DNA from: Natronococcus sp. A-GB7
GTDB taxonomy: Archaea; Halobacteriota; Halobacteria; Halobacteriales; Natrialbaceae
DNA length: 37,085 nucleotides
NCBI RefSeq assembly: GCF_029688865.1
Contig: NZ_JARUKV010000035.1
Location: forward strand, 1 to 37,085
Direction: 5' to 3'
Position numbers and translations under genes: made by a program. Numbering within the stretch: position 1 is the first letter of the stretch; every line of letters begins with the position of its first letter. Below, piece by piece: positions 24,209-36,887 of this stretch. A model generated the notes under the pieces. The model ran no database searches and was not told the DNA's origin. It was given only the letters and a program-made list of their open reading frames with translations.

Positions 24209-24986
24209 GGCACTGTATAGTTCTGCGCCTCTTCGGCTGGCGCGGCACCGTCTAGTTAGCGCGGTTTGAGAAACGAGCAGGTCATAGAGCTAGTTTGGCT
24301 ATGACGCTCGCAGACCTGCTCAGCGAGTGCTACGCGGCGGAATTTGATGAAGCTTGGGAGCGCGAGCGGACGGCGACGCCCGTCAGGGTGTTCGCCGTCC
24401 GCCTCCACGCGACCGGGTGTTCTCTCCGAGAGACACAATCGATTCTTCGCTTGATCGGCGTCAAGCGATCTCATCAAGCAATCTGGAACTGGGTACATCG
24501 GCTGGCTGACAGCGTTTCAGACCCGCCGACGGCGAAGCCCTCGCGGGTCGCCATTGATGAAACCGCTGTCAGGATTAACGGTGACTGGTCTTGGGTGTAC
24601 GCTGCAATAGATGTAGACTCTAGACTCATTCTCGATGTCGCAGTGTTCGGACGACGAGGCACCGATCCAGCCGCTGCGTTTCTGCATCGATTAACCGAGA
24701 AACACGATCTCTCCGAGACTGTGTTTCTCGTCGATGGCTACGGCTATCTGACTGCCCTCTCTCGATTAGGGTTGAGCGGTCAGCTCGACTACGTTGATCG
24801 AAACCTGATCGAAAAGTGGTTTCACGCCTTCAAGATGCGAGTTGACCGCTTCCATAACTCGTGGGTGGGCAGTCGGGCGAGCGTCAGGGAACGGCTTGAA
24901 GAGTTCGTACACTATTATAACACACAACGACCGCACCAAGCACTCAACGGACAAACGCCAGCGGAGGTGCTAAACTAGACAGTGCC
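24209..24986 (+). mobile_element. IS6-family insertion sequence (haloarchaeal type)
   Basis: The element is bounded by imperfect inverted repeats: left GGCACTGTATAGTTCTGCGC from 24209, and right, read on the minus strand from 24986, GGCACTGTCTAGTTTAGCAC; 17 of 21 positions agree. GGCACTGT is the classical IS6/IS26 tip. The 8 bases outside the ends (CTCACTGT and TTATAGAT) do not match, so no target duplication is left. A second left-end-like sequence, GGCACCGTCTAGTTAGCGCG, lies at 24244 and matches the right tip at 13 of its first 14 bases. Confidence 0.85.
24301..24978 (+). CDS. IS6-family DDE transposase
   Basis: The 225-residue transposase carries an N-terminal helix-turn-helix (TGCSLRETQSILRLIGVKRSHQAI) and the DDE catalytic core: Asp86 in VAIDETAVRING, Asp145 in FLVDGYGYL, and Glu171-Lys172 in DRNLIEKWFHAFKMR. 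The end, YYNTQRPHQALNGQTPAEVL, is typical of IS6 transposases. Length is full and no stop or shift is seen, so it may be active. IS6 elements move by replicative transposition through cointegrates. The ATG at 24301 is preferred over the TTG two codons upstream. It sits at the border between the G+C-rich block and the low-G+C island. Confidence 0.93.
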   Translation: MTLADLLSECYAAEFDEAWERERTATPVRVFAVRLHATGCSLRETQSILRLIGVKRSHQAIWNWVHRLADSVSDPPTAKPSRVAIDETAVRINGDWSWVYAAIDVDSRLILDVAVFGRRGTDPAAAFLHRLTEKHDLSETVFLVDGYGYLTALSRLGLSGQLDYVDRNLIEKWFHAFKMRVDRFHNSWVGSRASVRERLEEFVHYYNTQRPHQALNGQTPAEVLN

Positions 24987-28430: not shown

Positions 28431-29723
28431 ATGGTGAAGCATAACATCGGGCAGACTAGGCGCCGGTTTATCAAAACTACAGCCAGCAGTAGCGCTGCAG
28501 TCGGCTTGGGGGCGCTTGCAGGCTGCGTTTCGAGTCGGGGTGAGAGCCGAGAAGCAGTCGGCTCAGTCGCCAATCTCGAGAACTCGTACTGGTTATCATG
28601 GCAGAGAGGATACGAGGAGGCGTGTGAGACGTTCGGATACGACACAAATCTTCAGACCAATGGAGGCGATGTTGACCAGCAACAATCGCAGTTCGATACT
28701 GCGGTTGCGAGTATGGTCGAAATGATTGTCGGGCAAACCTATACTAATGCAGCGGCACTCTCACTCGCCGAGACTGCGGTTGTTGGGGAGGTCCCGACGA
28801 TACTCGCAGTTACGATCGCTGACTGGTATACACCGTTAGATGCTGGATCCCAGTACGTCCAGTTCTTCACACCTCATTTCGTTAATCACGCTTACGCCTC
28901 TGCAAAGGTACTATTCGAGGAAATGGGCGGTGAAGGATCGTTCGTGCACATCGAGGGAAACCGTGGGACGGCCCCGAACACTGGCCGAAATATCGGACTC
29001 GAGGCTGCTCTCGAAGAGTATCCCGATATTGAGCGACTTGAGCCGGTCCTGCAGGGAAACTTCATCCGAACAGACGCCAGGGATGCAATGTCTGACCTGA
29101 TCTCGACGCACGGCGACGATATTGAGGGTTTTTTCGGACAAAACGACGACGTCGCGATCGGCGGTTTGCAGCGACTCGAAGAAAGCGGTTACGACGTGCC
29201 AGTTGTCGGTATCGATGCAACCGAACCCGCACTCGAACGTATTCGAGACGGGCGGATGGCTGGTAGCATCTCTGGTATGGGTCCATGGCAAGCAGGATGG
29301 TCAATTGCGAAAGCGCATGATTTCATCGAAGGCTACGAACTCAGCGATGCAGAACGGATGATGACGTTCAACGCCCCGCTCGTCGTCGCTGACCCGGACG
29401 AGTGGCGCGACCGGATAGGTGATGAGATCGAGCTTCCTATCATTGAAGTTGACCAGTACGAAGATGCGATCTTTGACGGAGAAACACCGTACGACTGGAA
29501 GCAAATGTCGAAAGCAGAAGTTGGCGAAGATGAGTGGGATCCCCAGATCGAGATGAGTCCGATGGGGCGAGATGATCTTCAAGGAGTACTCGACTGGGAC
29601 GATGATGACATTCCAGATGGGTACTCGCTTCCGGAAGTCTACGATGATACTGACGAACTGGCTACTGTGCAATCGACGTACGATGAGCACTTCAACACGG
29701 ATCCGCTTCAAGAACAACCATGA
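28431..29723 (+). CDS. ABC importer substrate-binding lipoprotein (ribose-type, Tat-exported)
   Basis: The 430-residue protein begins with a twin-arginine signal (RRRFIK at 10-15), a hydrophobic stretch and a lipobox LAGC with Cys32, so it should be exported folded by Tat and anchored to the outer face of the membrane. The rest is a type I periplasmic-binding fold (GEVPTILAVTIADWY, FVHIEGNRGTAPNTGRN, IEGFFGQNDDVAIGGLQRLE and PVVGIDATEPALERI), as in RbsB. The acidic C-terminal part (about 350-430) extends beyond the usual 300 or so residues. RbsB-like proteins bind sugars, polyols, purines or AI-2; the ligand here is unknown. Its stop overlaps the ATPase start by 4 bases. Confidence 0.92.
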   Translation: MVKHNIGQTRRRFIKTTASSSAAVGLGALAGCVSSRGESREAVGSVANLENSYWLSWQRGYEEACETFGYDTNLQTNGGDVDQQQSQFDTAVASMVEMIVGQTYTNAAALSLAETAVVGEVPTILAVTIADWYTPLDAGSQYVQFFTPHFVNHAYASAKVLFEEMGGEGSFVHIEGNRGTAPNTGRNIGLEAALEEYPDIERLEPVLQGNFIRTDARDAMSDLISTHGDDIEGFFGQNDDVAIGGLQRLEESGYDVPVVGIDATEPALERIRDGRMAGSISGMGPWQAGWSIAKAHDFIEGYELSDAERMMTFNAPLVVADPDEWRDRIGDEIELPIIEVDQYEDAIFDGETPYDWKQMSKAEVGEDEWDPQIEMSPMGRDDLQGVLDWDDDDIPDGYSLPEVYDDTDELATVQSTYDEHFNTDPLQEQP

Positions 29724-31297
29724 GTGAATACAGCGTAGATACCAAAAAGACGGACTTAACAAGAAATGATTCGAAGCCGACTGGTGAAGCAAGCTTGCGT
29801 GTCGAGGGCGTCTCGAAGTCGTTTCGACACGTGGATGCATTAACCGACGTCTCTCTTGAGCTCAATCGAGGTGAAGTAGTCGGACTCGTCGGCGAAAACG
29901 GCGCCGGAAAGAGTACACTTCTTAATATCCTCACAGGGGTGTTACAATCCGACGCCGGAAAGATCTACAGAGACGGGACGGCTGTCGAGTTCAACGGGCC
30001 CCAGGAAGCGGCATCGTACGGCGTCTCGCTGGTACATCAAGAACAGGACGTTATCACTTATTTCAGAGGATACGAGAACCTGTTCTTGGGGCGAGAACGC
30101 GAGTCGATAGGGATCTTGAAAAAGGGCGAGATGAGCAAAAGAGCCCAGGCGTTTGTCGATGATCTCGGGATTCACATCGATGTAGACAAGTTCGTAAAGA
30201 ATTACTCGTTCAACGAACGGCAGATGCTCGAGATTGCGAAAGCGTTCCACGTGTCGAGCAAGGCCGAGAACCCGATTATCCTTCTCGATGAGCCGACCGC
30301 GGGGCTCGAAGAAGACGGTCGTGAACTTTTGTTCAACTTGGTCAACGACCTTCGAGAGGAAGCAACGTTCGTGTTCGTCTCTCACGAGCTGGATGAGGTA
30401 CTCGAAATTACGGACCGTATTTACGTGCTGAAAGATGGTGAAATGGTTGATGAATACGTAACGACGGATGCAACGACGGACAAGTTACAACGAAGCATGG
30501 TCGGTCGAGAGACTTCTACGGAGTACTATCGTGTTCCCGAGCAACGCCACGAATCTACTCTCGGCGACTCGGTTCTTGAGGTGAACGACATCCAAGCTGA
30601 AGAGGAACTCGGACCAATATCGTTTTCGGTCCAGCGCGGTGAGATATTCGGAATCGTTGGTGTTGAGGGGTCCGGAAAGGAAAGACTTGGTCGAGTTCTT
30701 GCAGGAGCGACTCCAGCGACCGATGGGACCCTTACTGTCAATGGGACCAACGTGAAACCGAAGTCGCCGACTGAAATGGTCGACACTGGGGTTGGATACA
30801 TCCCAAAAGACCGCAAATCAGAGGGGTTACTACTGTACCAGTCCGTATTGAAGAACACGTCACTCGCAATGGTGCGTACTATGCATGGCCGACTCCCATT
30901 TCTCGACACGGATGCGGAATCGTCTGTGACCGAAGAGATGATCGAAGACCTCAACATCAAGACACCGGGTCCAAATGCGCTCGTACACGGCCTGAGCGGT
31001 GGGAACCAGCAGAAGGTCGTTATCGCCCGATGGTTAGCACATGAAACACCGATCCTCGTCATGGACAACGTTACTCGTGGAATCGACGTCGGCGCAAAAG
31101 AAGAAGTGTATCGTCTCTGCCGAGAGCTAACCGACAACGGGATCTCAATCGTGCTTATCGGCGACGAGCTACCCGAAGTAATCGGATTATCCAACCGAAT
31201 TGCAGTTATGGAGGATGGATCATTCGCCGGCGAGCCGATCGACGCTTCACCTGATGCAAAGCCAACCGAAGAAAAACTAATCGAGTTGATGGTCTAA
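29720..31297 (+). CDS. ABC importer ATPase with two nucleotide-binding domains (RbsA/MglA type)
   Basis: This 525-residue protein holds two ABC domains. The first has Walker A GENGAGKS (58-65) and Walker B LLDEPTAG (188-195), but a weak signature YSFNERQ (162-168) in place of LSGGQ. The second has a degenerate Walker A GVEGSGKE (314-321), a good signature LSGGNQQ (425-431) and Walker B VMDNVTRG, where Asn450 stands for the catalytic Glu. In RbsA-type proteins the second site is often impaired in Walker A, but the Asn is unusual. With domain-1 Walker motifs pairing with the domain-2 signature, one good hydrolytic site remains. It is coupled to the binding protein (4-base overlap) and to the permease (1-base gap). 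Confidence 0.94.
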   Translation: MSEYSVDTKKTDLTRNDSKPTGEASLRVEGVSKSFRHVDALTDVSLELNRGEVVGLVGENGAGKSTLLNILTGVLQSDAGKIYRDGTAVEFNGPQEAASYGVSLVHQEQDVITYFRGYENLFLGRERESIGILKKGEMSKRAQAFVDDLGIHIDVDKFVKNYSFNERQMLEIAKAFHVSSKAENPIILLDEPTAGLEEDGRELLFNLVNDLREEATFVFVSHELDEVLEITDRIYVLKDGEMVDEYVTTDATTDKLQRSMVGRETSTEYYRVPEQRHESTLGDSVLEVNDIQAEEELGPISFSVQRGEIFGIVGVEGSGKERLGRVLAGATPATDGTLTVNGTNVKPKSPTEMVDTGVGYIPKDRKSEGLLLYQSVLKNTSLAMVRTMHGRLPFLDTDAESSVTEEMIEDLNIKTPGPNALVHGLSGGNQQKVVIARWLAHETPILVMDNVTRGIDVGAKEEVYRLCRELTDNGISIVLIGDELPEVIGLSNRIAVMEDGSFAGEPIDASPDAKPTEEKLIELMV

Positions 31298-31298
31298 C

Positions 31299-32300
31299 AT
31301 GAGCACAAACAGCACAACGGAAAACGTCCAGAACTGGTGGCAAGAACAGCGAGAACAGCGAACGCGTCAGGATTGGATAATCGATCTCGGACCGTTTGTG
31401 ATGCTTTTCGGGCTGGTGGCGTTGTTCACCGCCCTGAGCGAGAACTTCCTCACGTACGGGAATCTCATCAATAACGTGGCAGTAAACAGCTCACTGTTAC
31501 TTTTGGTTGCACTAGCGGGAACGTTCCCAATCCTACAGCAAAGTATCGATCTCTCGGTGGCTGCACTGGTCAATCTGATGGGTGTCCTCACCGTGATCCT
31601 CGTCGCACAGTTCGGCTTTCTTGCGATTCCGCTAGTTCTAGCTGGAGGAATGCTTGCCGGGTTTGCGAACGGCTACGTATTCGCTAAATTCAAAGTGCCA
31701 TCGTTCCTGGTGACGCTTGGAACGATGTCCGTAATGACGGGGATCGCTTTGATCATGACCGGTGGGTCGAGCATCAACTTTAGAAATGATGCGATTCGGA
31801 GCATCGCAACTGGGGAGCTCATCCCGGGCCTACCAAACCTCGTTTTCTGGTCGGTGGTGATCTATCTGGGCACGGTGTTCATCGCGTTCCGAACGAAGTT
31901 TGGCCGGTACTGCTACGCACTCGGGGAGAATGAACGCGTCGTTGAACTTTCGGGTGCGAAAGTCGACCGGTATAAGATCTATCCGTTCGTTCTCTCCGGA
32001 CTTCTCTGTGCGATCGGCGGGTTCTTACTCGCTGCTCGACTGTCGTCGGCATCACCCGACGCAGGGACGGATCTTTTACTCCCGAGTATCGCAGCGATAG
32101 TTATGGGGGGCACGGCACTAACCGGTGGCGTCGGTGGTCCTCACCGAACGATCCTCGGCGTGCTCGTCATCGCAGTACTGCAAAATGGGATGAACCTGAC
32201 CGCAGTCGATCCTTTCGTCCAAGAAATCATCCTCGGTGTCGTAGTCGTCGTCGCCGTTGCACTATCGATCGATCGGCGGAAAATCGACGTCGTCAAATAA
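31299..32300 (+). CDS. ABC importer permease (RbsC-type, BPD_transp_2)
   Basis: The 333-residue membrane protein has about 8-10 hydrophobic segments and the family's marks: FLTYGNLINNVAVNSSLLLL, GTFPILQQSIDLSVAALVNL, FKVPSFLVTLGTMSVMTGIAL, and the cytoplasmic loop FRTKFGRYCYALGENERVVEL, which meets the ATPase. GGTALTGGVGGPHRTILGVL follows, as in RbsC. A single permease gene implies a homodimer. The N-terminal 30 residues are polar and cytoplasmic. It is the last gene of the importer operon; the convergent SDR gene starts 147 bases away with nothing but T/C-rich spacer between. Confidence 0.93.
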   Translation: MSTNSTTENVQNWWQEQREQRTRQDWIIDLGPFVMLFGLVALFTALSENFLTYGNLINNVAVNSSLLLLVALAGTFPILQQSIDLSVAALVNLMGVLTVILVAQFGFLAIPLVLAGGMLAGFANGYVFAKFKVPSFLVTLGTMSVMTGIALIMTGGSSINFRNDAIRSIATGELIPGLPNLVFWSVVIYLGTVFIAFRTKFGRYCYALGENERVVELSGAKVDRYKIYPFVLSGLLCAIGGFLLAARLSSASPDAGTDLLLPSIAAIVMGGTALTGGVGGPHRTILGVLVIAVLQNGMNLTAVDPFVQEIILGVVVVVAVALSIDRRKIDVVK

Positions 32301-32447: not shown

Positions 32448-33203
32448 TTAGGCGGTAAAGCCACCGTCAACGATGAGATTCTGTCCTGTGATGAAGGAGG
32501 CCTCATCACTTGCAAGAAACAGAGCAGCATCTGCGACCTCATCGGGCTGTCCCGGACGACCAAGCGGTGTATTCTCCGTAAGATCGGCTGCGGTATCACC
32601 GTCTTTTTTTGTCATCGCCGTTTCAATGATCCCCGGATTCAACGCGTTAACACGGATCCCGTGCGGTCCCTGTTCGATCGCAAGTTCGCGGGTTAAGTTC
32701 GTCACGCCTCCCTTCGAGGTACAGTACAACGATGAGTTCTCGAGTCCGCAAATACCAGCGATGGAGGACATATTAATGATGGTACCACCAGTGGCTTGCT
32801 CCTGCATCTCCTCGATTGCAGCCTGACAGCCGAAGTAGGCACCCTTGAGATTGATGTCCATCAGCCACTCGAAGTCCTCTTCGCTTGCGTCAGTGATTGG
32901 CATCTGTCGTTCGACGCCTGCGTTATTAACCATCACATCTAGCGATCCATACATTTCGACCGTCTCGGTGATTGCGTTCCGGATATCCTTGATTGATGTA
33001 ACGTCCGTCTCGATGTACTGTGCGCTACCACCGCTTGCTGTGATGAGTTCGTGGGTTGGCTCGCCACCGAGCCGAGGATCTGTTCGGACATCGGCAACGG
33101 TGACGTTCGCTCCCTCTTCAGCGAATCGTTGTGCTATCGCCCGTCCGTTCCCTGATGATGCGCCGGTTATCAGTGCCGTCGTTTGCTCTAATCTTCCAGT
33201 CAT
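32448..33203 (-). CDS. Short-chain dehydrogenase/reductase (second)
   Basis: This 251-residue SDR has LITGASSGNGRAIA (11-24; Asn replaces the usual Ile of GIG), Asp38 in VTVADVR (favouring NAD), MVNNAGVERQM, Ser in INMSSIAGICG, Tyr/Lys in SSLYCTSKGGV, and the ending FITGQNLIVDGGFTA. The closest look-alikes are glucose-1-dehydrogenase or 3-oxoacyl-reductase types, which are not specific. It converges with the importer operon and probably acts on its cargo or on the product of the first SDR. A TATA-like CTTATTATTA lies at 33251-33260, giving a leader of about 25 bases. Confidence 0.92.
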   Translation of the reverse strand: MTGRLEQTTALITGASSGNGRAIAQRFAEEGANVTVADVRTDPRLGGEPTHELITASGGSAQYIETDVTSIKDIRNAITETVEMYGSLDVMVNNAGVERQMPITDASEEDFEWLMDINLKGAYFGCQAAIEEMQEQATGGTIINMSSIAGICGLENSSLYCTSKGGVTNLTRELAIEQGPHGIRVNALNPGIIETAMTKKDGDTAADLTENTPLGRPGQPDEVADAALFLASDEASFITGQNLIVDGGFTA

Positions 33204-33331: not shown

Positions 33332-34792
33332 TTACTCCGTCGGTGCGATGTTGAGGCACACATTTTTTAGTTGCGTGTAGTTCTCGATCGCTTGAATCCC
33401 ATTTTCACGGCCGATTCCGCTTCGTTTGAAGCCGCCGAAAGGAGTCTCATTGCCGCTGGCGAAGTACTCGTTGATGTAAATCTGGCCGGCATCGACCTCT
33501 CGGGCGAAACGGTGGGCGCGACCGACGTTCTCGGTGTAGACGCCCGCGACGAGACCGTAGTCTGTCGCGTTGGCCAACTCTATGGCCTCGCCCTCGTCAG
33601 CGAAGGGCGTGACCGTCAGCACCGGCCCGAAGATCTCCTCCTGAGCAATGCGTGTGTCCATGGGCACGTCGTCGAAGACTGTCGGTTCAACGAAATATCC
33701 GTCGCGGTCCAGCGCATTGCCGCCAGTCACCGGCTCGCCAACCTCTTCACGGCCGATATCGACATAGCTCAGGACTTTCTCCAAGTGAGCCTCGGAGACG
33801 AGCGGGCCCATGTCCACGTCCTTGAGACCGGAACCGACGTCAAGTGACTCCGCACGCTCAACGAGGTCGTCGACGAACTCTTCGTGGATGTCCTCGTGAA
33901 CGAGCAGGCGCGATCCCGCCGAGCAGACCTGCCCGGCGTTGGTGAAGATTGCCGTCATCGTTCCGTTGAGGGCGCCCTCCCAGTCAGCATCCGGGAAGAC
34001 GACGTTCGGGCTCTTTCCACCAAGTTCGAGGTGCGTTTCGGTAACGTTCTCAACGGCGCTCTTCGCGACCGCTGTCCCGGTCGGACCAGAGCCGGTGAAG
34101 GTGATGCTGTTCACGTCTGGATGGCCGGTGATTGCGGCTCCGGCCTCGTTGCCGTAGCCAGGAACGACATTGAGGAGTCCATCGGGGAGGCCGGCCTCGG
34201 ATGCGAGTCTGGCGAGTTCGAGCGCGCCCAGCGGCGTCTCTTCGGCGGGTTTGACGACAGCTGCGTTCCCGGCGGCGAGTGCGGGGGCAACGCTCCGTGC
34301 AAAGAGATAGATCGGGACGTTCCAGGGGACGATATGAGCGGTGACACCCAGGGGTTCGCGGACGGTGTAGTCGACGTACTCCTCGGAGAGCGGAATCGAC
34401 TCGCCCTGGATCTTGTCGGCGATGCCGGCGTAGTACTCGAAGTGACGGGCACAGCGCTCGACTTGGTCCTCGGCCTCGCCGAGTGGCTTGCCATTCTCTA
34501 GCGTCTCAATACGAGCTAGCTGGTTGTTCTTCTCGCGGATGGCGGCCGCGATGTCTGTGAGAATCTGCGTCCGTTTTTTCGGAGGTCGGCGGTGCCACGA
34601 CTCGAACGCGTCGCGGGCGTTCTCGACTGCCGCGTCAGCGTCGTCGGCCGTTCCCATCGCGACGTCGGCGAGTGGCTCTTCAGTCGCAGGGTTGACAACT
34701 GCCAGCTGGTCGTCGCTTCCGGCTGGCCGCTCGTCTCCGCCAATCCACAGATCATACTGGTCACTGACCGCAGCGAGCGCTTTCTTTGACAT
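33332..34792 (-). CDS. Aldehyde dehydrogenase (NAD(P)-dependent)
   Basis: This 486-residue enzyme of the ALDH superfamily oxidises an aldehyde to its acid. Asn158 lies in IVPWNVPIYL, the catalytic base Glu256 in THLELGGKSPNVV, the coenzyme loop in TFTGSGPTGTAVAK, and the nucleophile Cys290 in TNAGQVCSAGSRL; the end has PFGGFKRSGIGREN, as usual. No CoA-acylating feature is seen. The ATG at 34792 is chosen, but the GTG at 34798 is equally placed for translation. It diverges from the amidohydrolase operon, and its G+C-rich sequence differs from the SDR gene next to it, so it may belong to the right-hand group. Confidence 0.94.
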   Translation of the reverse strand: MSKKALAAVSDQYDLWIGGDERPAGSDDQLAVVNPATEEPLADVAMGTADDADAAVENARDAFESWHRRPPKKRTQILTDIAAAIREKNNQLARIETLENGKPLGEAEDQVERCARHFEYYAGIADKIQGESIPLSEEYVDYTVREPLGVTAHIVPWNVPIYLFARSVAPALAAGNAAVVKPAEETPLGALELARLASEAGLPDGLLNVVPGYGNEAGAAITGHPDVNSITFTGSGPTGTAVAKSAVENVTETHLELGGKSPNVVFPDADWEGALNGTMTAIFTNAGQVCSAGSRLLVHEDIHEEFVDDLVERAESLDVGSGLKDVDMGPLVSEAHLEKVLSYVDIGREEVGEPVTGGNALDRDGYFVEPTVFDDVPMDTRIAQEEIFGPVLTVTPFADEGEAIELANATDYGLVAGVYTENVGRAHRFAREVDAGQIYINEYFASGNETPFGGFKRSGIGRENGIQAIENYTQLKNVCLNIAPTE

Positions 34793-34894
34793 TGACACCT
34801 GAATTGACTCTCCACTCGTGTAAATAGCTTGTGCGTCAACGTGGATACGAAATGAAACGCGTCTCGGTAGAAAACGCCAAGCATCTTATCCGAA

Positions 34895-34929: not shown

Positions 34930-36006
34930 ATGTTAGAGAATGGCGCCCTAGTCGTTGATTCAGTCTCACACTGTTTCAACCATGCAGAGGAGAACCTGAA
35001 ACACCCACACGCACAACGTTGGAACGACGAGACTTTCGAACTTGGCGAGCAACTCCAGCCCGAGAAGTACGTCCATCCAAAAGAGGTGTTCCACCGTGAC
35101 CACTCGGTCGAGGAACTCGAACGACTGCTATTCCTGGAGAGTCAGGTTGATTACACGAACTATCACTCGCTGCCACTCGACGATTACTTCCACGACGGGC
35201 TGGTCTCCCGAGAGAAGGGGTTTGAGCTTCGCGACCGCAACCCAAACCGCGTCTCGATGTACGTCGACATCAATCCACTCGACGACGACGCTGTCGAGCA
35301 AGTCGAGTACTATGTCAAAGAAAAAAACGTCGAAGGCATCAAGCTCTACCCCGCCCGCTACCAGAACGGCCAGGACCTCTCGCTACAGCTCAACGAAGAT
35401 GCGGTCCGTCCCGTCTTGGAGAAGGCCGCTGACCTCGACGTAACTTCCGTCGGGATTCACAAGTTCATCCCGTTCGCGACGGCGCCGGTCCGGTACTTCC
35501 GGATGGGTGACGTCGAGGACGCCGCGAACGCATTCCCCGAACTCAATTTCGAGGTCATCCACGCCGGCTTCTCGTTCCTCGAAGAAACCGTCTTCGCGAT
35601 GGCGAGCCACGAAAACGTCTACGCGAACCTCGAAAACACGATCCACATGGCCTGCTCGCGGCCGCGGAAGTTCGCCCGCTCACTTGGTGAGATGCTCTAC
35701 TGGGCCGGGCCGGACCGCATCGTCTTCTCCGGCGGCGCGACGGCGCTGCACCCGCAGGCAGCCATCGAGGACTTTTGGGACTTCGAGATCCCCGAGGACA
35801 TGCGCGCCGGAAACGACTATCCCCAAGTCACCGACGAAATCAAAGAGAAGATTCTCGGGAAAAACGCTTTCCGGCTCTTAGGGAAAGACCCTGAGAAGGT
35901 CAGAAAGGACATTGAGGGCGACAAGTGGGAACAGAAGCGCCAGGAGCGTAAAGAGACCGGCGATTTCCCGGCTGAACCATGGTCGACCTACGACACCCCC
36001 GCATAA
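34930..36006 (+). CDS. Amidohydrolase-superfamily protein with altered metal site
   Basis: The 358-residue protein looks like a COG2159 (ACMSD-like) amidohydrolase: GIKLYPARYQNGQDL (137-151), VGIHKFIPFATAP with His177, FEVIHAGFSFLEETV with His211, and the late DRIVFSGGATALHPQA, followed by a C-terminal helix-rich tail. The N-terminal metal motif D-x-H-x-H reads VDSVSHCFN, so only His14 is kept, and the late Asp ligand (normally SD) is Gly268. It may bind metal differently or act on another reaction. It heads an operon with a MIP18-like gene (2-base gap) and UspA. I recall similar amidohydrolase/DUF59 pairs beside actinobacterial propane monooxygenases; no monooxygenase is here. Confidence 0.8.
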   Translation: MLENGALVVDSVSHCFNHAEENLKHPHAQRWNDETFELGEQLQPEKYVHPKEVFHRDHSVEELERLLFLESQVDYTNYHSLPLDDYFHDGLVSREKGFELRDRNPNRVSMYVDINPLDDDAVEQVEYYVKEKNVEGIKLYPARYQNGQDLSLQLNEDAVRPVLEKAADLDVTSVGIHKFIPFATAPVRYFRMGDVEDAANAFPELNFEVIHAGFSFLEETVFAMASHENVYANLENTIHMACSRPRKFARSLGEMLYWAGPDRIVFSGGATALHPQAAIEDFWDFEIPEDMRAGNDYPQVTDEIKEKILGKNAFRLLGKDPEKVRKDIEGDKWEQKRQERKETGDFPAEPWSTYDTPA

Positions 36007-36008
36007 CC

Positions 36009-36443
36009 ATGCGTATAATCGAAAACGCTGAACAAGATCACATCACGCCCGACACCGAGTTCGACAGCGACCTCAAGATGGCTGTCAAGACACAGCTTCA
36101 GGAAGTCCTTGACCCCTGCAGCTGTATCACCGACAACCCGATCGATCTCGTCGACCTCGGTATCATCGACGACATCACGATTGACGAGCAGACTGGCGAG
36201 GCGAGGATCGATATCCTGCTAACCTCCCAGCGGTGCATGTACGTCATCGATATCACCGACGAAATCAAAGAACGCGTTGAGTCTATCGAGGGGATCGAGA
36301 TAGCCGAGGTTCACCAAGTGACCAGCGGGAAAGTCTGGACAGCGGAACGTATGTCCGAACAGCAGCAGAAAGAACGTCGCGAGCGCTTCCAAGAGCGTGT
36401 CGAGGCCGCGGACATTACACCCTACGCGGAGCGCTCGGACTGA
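36009..36443 (+). CDS. MIP18/PaaD-like (DUF59) protein
   Basis: The 144-residue protein has the DUF59/MIP18 core, with LDPCSCITDNPIDLVDLGII (34-53) in place of the usual DPE..vslvdlGmI, and LLTSQRCMYVIDITDEI with Cys76 in the place of the family Cys that binds or transfers Fe-S clusters. DEVxxxxG is replaced by EIAEVHQVTSG. The C-terminal 35 residues are a charged helix (MSEQQQKERRERFQERVE). Family members help mature Fe-S or metal proteins (SufT, PaaD); here the neighbour amidohydrolase is the likely client. The start is the ATG two bases after the amidohydrolase stop; the longer reading would overlap that gene. Confidence 0.8.
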   Translation: MRIIENAEQDHITPDTEFDSDLKMAVKTQLQEVLDPCSCITDNPIDLVDLGIIDDITIDEQTGEARIDILLTSQRCMYVIDITDEIKERVESIEGIEIAEVHQVTSGKVWTAERMSEQQQKERRERFQERVEAADITPYAERSD

Positions 36444-36446
36444 GCC

Positions 36447-36887
36447 ATGACGCTCCAGATACTCGTGCCGCTTGACGACTCGCCGCAAGCAATGACCGCC
36501 GTCGAACATGCGGTCACGCACTATCCAGGCACCGACATCACGATACTGACCGTCATAGAGTATACCGAGAAGAAAACCAGTCTCGCACGCGGTGGTCGTG
36601 GTCGAGAAGAAGGGTGGTACGCCGAGGAACGAGAGGCCGCCGAGGAACTACTCGACAAGGCCGCCGACATCGCCGCCGACCATGATGGCAACATCAACAC
36701 TGTTATCGAAAACGGGACCCCCTCGAGCGAAATTCTCGACTACATGACCGACCACGACGTCGACATCGTCGTAATGGGGTACCGGAAGCGGAGTCCGACC
36801 GGAAAGGCCCTTTTTGGGTCAACCGCTCAGGACGTTCTGCTGTCAGTCGAGTGCCCGGTCGTCACTGTTCCGAATCCAGAGAGCTGA
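36447..36887 (+). CDS. Universal stress protein, UspA family (second)
   Basis: The 146-residue UspA domain begins MTLQILVPLDDSPQAMTAVE and ends with VVMGYRKRSPTGKALFGSTA, then QDVLLSVECPVVTV, giving the G-x-x-x...G-x(9)-G-S nucleotide loop. An acidic/Arg insertion (RGGRGREEGWYAEER) follows the second strand. It starts 3 bases after the MIP18-like stop, so it is part of that operon. It differs clearly from the UspA at 10252. A regulatory or chaperone-like role for the operon's enzyme is possible but unproved. Confidence 0.9.
   Translation: MTLQILVPLDDSPQAMTAVEHAVTHYPGTDITILTVIEYTEKKTSLARGGRGREEGWYAEEREAAEELLDKAADIAADHDGNINTVIENGTPSSEILDYMTDHDVDIVVMGYRKRSPTGKALFGSTAQDVLLSVECPVVTVPNPES

Follow-up and report, generated by a model that had tools for sequence, protein, structure and literature searches.

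Sequence comparisons indicate that a PF04909 amidohydrolase-fold protein (AMH) and a DUF59/MIP18 protein, encoded side by side in Natronococcus sp. A-GB7, form a conserved unit across archaea and many bacteria. Gene pairs of this general type are known, though unexplained, and the present one is a variant of them. The reading towards which we incline, with modest confidence, is that it makes up one unit, in which a catabolic PF04909 enzyme, whose site is remodelled and probably depends on a metal, would be served by a dedicated DUF59 protein that loads or completes this site.

The locus and its products

The window analysed here (37,085 nucleotides) is an entire haloarchaeal contig, and the sequence 3' of the last gene of the locus falls outside its view. 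Three genes follow one another on the + strand, with spacings of 2 and then 3 nt according to the ORF check: AMH (34930..36006, 358 aa), DUF59 (36009..36443, 144 aa) and usp, encoding a universal stress protein (36447..36887, 146 aa). Their products match Amidohydro_2 PF04909 (E 3.9e-25, 89.6 bits against a gathering score of 26.4), FeS_assembly_P PF01883 (E 1.6e-9, above cut-off) and PF00582 (E 1.2e-26, above cut-off), respectively. A divergent aldehyde dehydrogenase gene (33332..34798, − strand; Aldedh, E 2.7e-178, above cut-off) also stands beside several close orthologues. The ORFs and Pfam matches thus bear out what the initial annotation had read from the sequence, that is, genes for a hydrolase-fold, a MIP18-like and a stress protein, separated by 2 and 3 bases and divergent from an aldehyde dehydrogenase. 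The DUF59 frame contains a second ATG further 5', at 35979, which would overlap AMH by 28 nt; orthologue alignments begin at 36009. A simple promoter and terminator scan, made with a bacterial model, gave no signal exceeding shuffles.

Conservation of the AMH-DUF59 pair

In all 80 named-genome loci, DUF59 and AMH are direct neighbours; these loci are the best 80 of 134 relatives from a scan of genome contigs, so that class proportions among them carry no meaning. These loci belong to Haloarchaea, Actinomycetota, Myxococcota, alpha-, beta- and gammaproteobacteria, one Bacillus and one SAR202 Chloroflexi. Among 178 AMH genes (de-duplicated on 60 residues, with ORFs below 150 bits or 250 aa excluded), 170 have a DUF59 gene within 1.5 kb. 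The eight genes with no partner within that distance are those at the ends of a stretch or contig (L146, and L182 twice), a fragment (L186), an aberrant copy counted as class B (L092) and extra class C copies whose nearest DUF59 is 2.6-6.9 kb distant (L091, L055 and L070). As a control, five pair-carrying genomes yielded 20 further PF04909 genes, and in the roughly 1.5 kb read on each side of these no DUF59 was found; the profiles used were built from AMH partners and could miss distant DUF59 types. Since it is kept in orthologues, the layout is far beyond chance. The proposal that AMH and the MIP18-like gene form a unit is upheld by this survey of neighbourhoods, which clearly did not show the MIP18-like gene to be missing beside most orthologues, the outcome named beforehand as speaking against it.

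Homologues of AMH occur in 97 of 293 haloarchaeal genomes (E 1e-20). DUF59 lies directly 3' of AMH in 9/9 close copies (the window and L003-L010) and in most copies of ~35% identity; the nearest named record among the matches listed is Natrinema hispanicum DSM 18328, with an AMH 98% identical. In plasmid records, an annotated DUF59-type gene adjoins AMH in 11 of 12, and in the twelfth, an unannotated Nonomuraea record, an ORF search places DUF59 just 5' of AMH. Across the 170 pairs, DUF59 is downstream of AMH in 105 class B cases and upstream in 1, downstream in 38 and upstream in 1 for class A, and upstream in 24 and downstream in 1 for class C. Adjacency of the two genes therefore outlasts an inversion of their order. 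Within class B, AMH and DUF59 distances are correlated (r 0.64; shuffles ≤0.16). On the AMH-DUF59 unit as such, our literature search, outside whose reach most subscription journals lie, returned only gene lists of propane operons. One record, L077, titled Comamonas sp. KCTC 72670, has flanking gene clusters that match Myxococcus sp. CA023 (L090), and the name given to this record or bin may be wrong.

Active-site classes of the amidohydrolase

Residues at positions 12, 14, 177, 211, 235, 269 and 274 of the window protein fall into few patterns among the first 130 AMH ORFs. Class B, [VITS]-H-H-H-E-[GA]-H, accounts for 119 of them, including the window AMH. Class A, H-H-H-H-A-D-x, was found in 5 and retains the canonical HxH...H...H...D. 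Class C, a small group with E at position 269, is an intermediate type with reversed gene order. Further searches enlarged A and C, and de-duplication left 107 class B, 41 class A and 29 class C genes, plus 1 fragment. In a tree of 60 rows, from which rows >72% identical to a retained one or shorter than 300 residues were left out, each class occupies one side of a single branch with support of 98-100.

The canonical mononuclear-metal PF04909 motif consists of HxH on beta1 and an Asp at the end of beta8. It is visible in class A sequences. In the window AMH, as in class B generally, neither the first His of beta1 nor the beta8 Asp is retained, and there are instead Glu235 and His274. On the + strand, V12-S13-H14 (codons at 34963..34971) take the place of the beta1 HxH; E235 (35632..35634) lies at the end of beta7, where class B has E and classes A and C have A or S; and the segment from G269, which replaces the beta8 Asp, to H274, near-constant in class B, is encoded at 35734..35751. 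The structural model (pLDDT 91.5) has PF04909 structures as its closest neighbours (Z up to 25.9), so that the sequence family and the TIM-barrel fold agree. By our own strand numbering, V12/H14, K138, H177, H211, E235 and G269 are at or just after beta1, beta4, beta5, beta6, beta7 and beta8, which in this model would place them on the catalytic face. Among NCBIfam models, no named family matched AMH, and a single-sequence search found no solved close relative; a profile search found the uncharacterised 3irs (E 8.7e-7).

Comparison with characterised PF04909 enzymes

ACMSD, 2,3-dihydroxybenzoate and 5-carboxyvanillate decarboxylases and LigJ, all non-redox PF04909 proteins, share the fold of AMH (VIA Z ~19-22 over 250-280 residues), but their identity to it is only 12-18%, and class B lacks the first His of beta1 as well as the beta8 Asp. 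The AMH fold list also includes DitZ (VIA Z 20.0, 8uyr), which we take to be an oxygenase of the amidohydrolase-related dinuclear group, and AibH1H2 (18.9, 8fun). Like class B, the dinuclear oxygenases AibH2, PtmU3 and SfbO have the PF04909 fold and deviate from the canonical site. However, the metal ligands of AibH2 are D25, H27, H211, E265, D337 and H340 (PMC7782822), whereas the positions corresponding to the first five of these are occupied in class B by V, H, H, H and G, in a spacing-based mapping with the beta6 Glu inferred. A dinuclear oxygenase (ARO) identity, considered on the strength of the DitZ and AibH1H2 fold matches, was set aside, as on this mapping the six-ligand set D-x-H, H, E, D, H is unmatched. 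A small Rieske ferredoxin is described next to dinuclear oxygenases with 90% co-occurrence (PMC10401708). Rieske proteins gave 0 matches in the scanned subset of window ORFs, and Rieske oxygenases occur near some Streptomyces AMH copies.

At locus L185, the gene immediately after a class C AMH is a second AMH, which has a long DUF59; such two-amidohydrolase arrays, to be compared with AibH1H2, might form heteromers. The SAR202 genome that carries L113 (G298, 2.8 Mb) has at least 99 PF04909 matches, whereas the five further genomes that were searched have 4-12.

The DUF59 partner

The window DUF59 is of a two-cysteine type, with D35-P36-C37-S38, T72, C76 and W110. C37 (36117..36119, + strand) belongs to a DPC motif that is DPE in class A partners, and C76 (36234..36236, + strand) is the cysteine held in common with them. 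Class B partners carry D/E-P-C together with the T, C and W in 106/106 de-duplicated cases. Those of class C carry DPC in 23 of 25, the exceptions being L011, whose sequence has no DPC, and L179, which is cut at its end. Class A partners are long and DPE-type, with a P-T-x-x-C motif. On these alignments, the AMH active-site type and the DUF59 motif type change together. Each class is one clade, so few ancestral events are involved and the match may reflect co-inheritance.

PF01883 is matched by all 25 of 25 DUF59 members, and the model (pLDDT 89.9) has DUF59 structures as best neighbours (Z 13.8 to 3lno, 9.8 to CIAO2B), which puts the protein within the MIP18/DUF59 family by sequence and fold, together with SufT, PaaD and CIAO2B. 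SufT or PaaD identity at the equivalog level was discarded, all three NCBIfam scores being far below the curated cut-offs (TIGR02945, 46.7 versus 143.4; NF041868, 45.4 versus 180; TIGR03406, 37.9 versus 202.6). Moreover, the window type has two invariant cysteines (DPC and T..C), unlike SufT homologues, for which a single strictly conserved one is reported (PMC4982691).

Relation to propane monooxygenase operons

Class A is the type present in propane monooxygenase operons, as on Paracoccus pAMI4 and a Rhodococcus aetherivorans plasmid. Papers on propane operons list the amidohydrolase and one more gene but assign no function, and the role of the two in these operons is still unexplained there (PMC6849523, PMC4428276). 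Annotations of the second gene read "protein of unknown function" or "metal-sulfur cluster biosynthetic enzyme". The operons of Actinobacteria and Paracoccus resemble the window in having a homologous AMH followed by DUF59, near dehydrogenases (PMC6849523, PMC4428276). They differ in that both HxH and the beta8 Asp are intact in class A, whose DUF59 is of the DPE type and ~250 aa long, whereas the window has a class B enzyme and a two-cysteine DUF59 of 144 aa, in a genome without a monooxygenase of the Phenol_Hydrox family. Indeed, the diiron hydroxylase family Phenol_Hydrox PF02332 had 0 matches in that genome, in a search in which the Paracoccus and Rhodococcus positive controls matched, and a role of the window pair as a propane monooxygenase accessory was rejected on this ground. 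Of the suggested kinship with actinobacterial propane monooxygenase genes, the relatedness of the pairs stands; the window AMH belongs to another clade and has another active site.

Class A also occurs in haloarchaea, with a long DUF59 at 29 of 30 loci, the remaining locus being cut by the contig end, and with a similar alcohol dehydrogenase within the sequence stretch at 26 of 30. The genome of the window itself has such a set (L211, G000:C23:122000-140000), in which AMH and a long DUF59 are accompanied by an FMN oxidoreductase and, in divergent orientation, a zinc alcohol dehydrogenase. In haloarchaea, class A pairs occur with an alcohol dehydrogenase and class B pairs with sugar-type importers. 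Since this genome holds both a class A and a class B pair and no Phenol_Hydrox match, the pair need not serve a monooxygenase and can be studied alone.

Proposed function and alternatives

From the conservation of the pair, we infer that the two proteins act together. AMH would take part in breaking down small molecules that are imported or oxidised, at a class B site that may be a remodelled or relocated metal site, with H14, H177, H211, E235 and H274 kept. With its two invariant cysteines, DUF59 would bind a metal, iron or another one, and would load, or complete, the AMH site; it is plausible that it matures the metal site of AMH in this way. A more specific version, which we put forward tentatively and hold to be possible at best, is that class B (and C) AMH represents a further PF04909 active-site type, with a site at H14, H177 and H211 plus E235 and/or H274 that the two-cysteine DUF59 would load with iron or a cluster, giving an Fe-dependent lyase, hydrolase or oxidase across archaea and bacteria. 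If DUF59 does load one defined enzyme, these two proteins would provide a simple model of the mode of action of this widespread domain.

DUF59 might instead be a permanent subunit that gives cysteines to a composite AMH active site, a prospect we find rather unlikely. It would fit the overlap or abutment of second-gene starts with the AMH stop, which is typical of stoichiometric complexes (in class B, 100 of 105 DUF59 starts are no more than 10 nt away from the AMH stop, the nearest start always being chosen, which favours short gaps), and it would also fit the shift of the DUF59 cysteine type with the AMH active-site class. However, no natural AMH-DUF59 fusion was found among the ORFs examined, and known DUF59 proteins are described as Fe-S maturation factors (PMC4982691).

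The loss of two usual ligands in class B also raises the question of whether this AMH works without a metal or is a scaffold with no catalytic role, DUF59 then serving neighbouring oxygenases or dehydrogenases, and some characterised PF04909 enzymes are indeed without a cofactor (PMC10811679). We regard this as improbable, because H14, H177, H211 and E235 are jointly present in 119/130 AMH ORFs and K138 in 129/130, unlike what a decayed site would show, and because DUF59 tracks AMH and no single other neighbour. Least probable is a three-gene unit with Usp as its control factor, as the initial annotation had proposed. All three genes are contiguous in the window and in a few orthologues, but Usp follows only 6 of the 170 pairs, all 6 in close haloarchaeal orthologues, and in Natronorubrum a usp gene is situated past the AMP-binding gene. 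Usp was rejected as part of the core on these counts and is an optional local neighbour in some haloarchaea. The reading that we retain is a dedicated DUF59 loading or completing a remodelled AMH site.

Genomic neighbourhood

Upstream of the pair, the window has an SDR dehydrogenase gene (32448..33203, − strand), also found beside close orthologues, and a ribose-type (CUT2-like) ABC importer made up of binding protein, ATPase and permease (28431..32300, + strand), identified by family searches and also near orthologues. Neighbours of the window orthologues further include an aldehyde:ferredoxin oxidoreductase and an AMP-binding enzyme. Overall, AMH genes are accompanied by SDR, AMP-binding enzymes/CoA ligases, sugar-type ABC importers, thiolases, alpha/beta hydrolases, GMC and Rieske oxidoreductases and P450, which point to catabolism of varied small molecules. 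The neighbourhoods surveyed are too variable for a common substrate to have emerged, and their single-linkage clusters lump families such as ABC ATPases.

Close haloarchaeal orthologues with an aldehyde:ferredoxin oxidoreductase (AFOR) gene nearby are L045, L046, L047, L048, L049 and L068. Elsewhere in the window, positions 433-23631 appear to be a catabolic island, with genes for an amidase, an epoxide hydrolase, acyl-CoA dehydrogenases, methylmalonyl-CoA mutase and MeaB, a DehI haloacid dehalogenase, a thiolase, a luciferase-like monooxygenase and an IclR regulator. An IS240-type transposase with a DDE domain is encoded at 24295-24978, within the catabolic region of the window.
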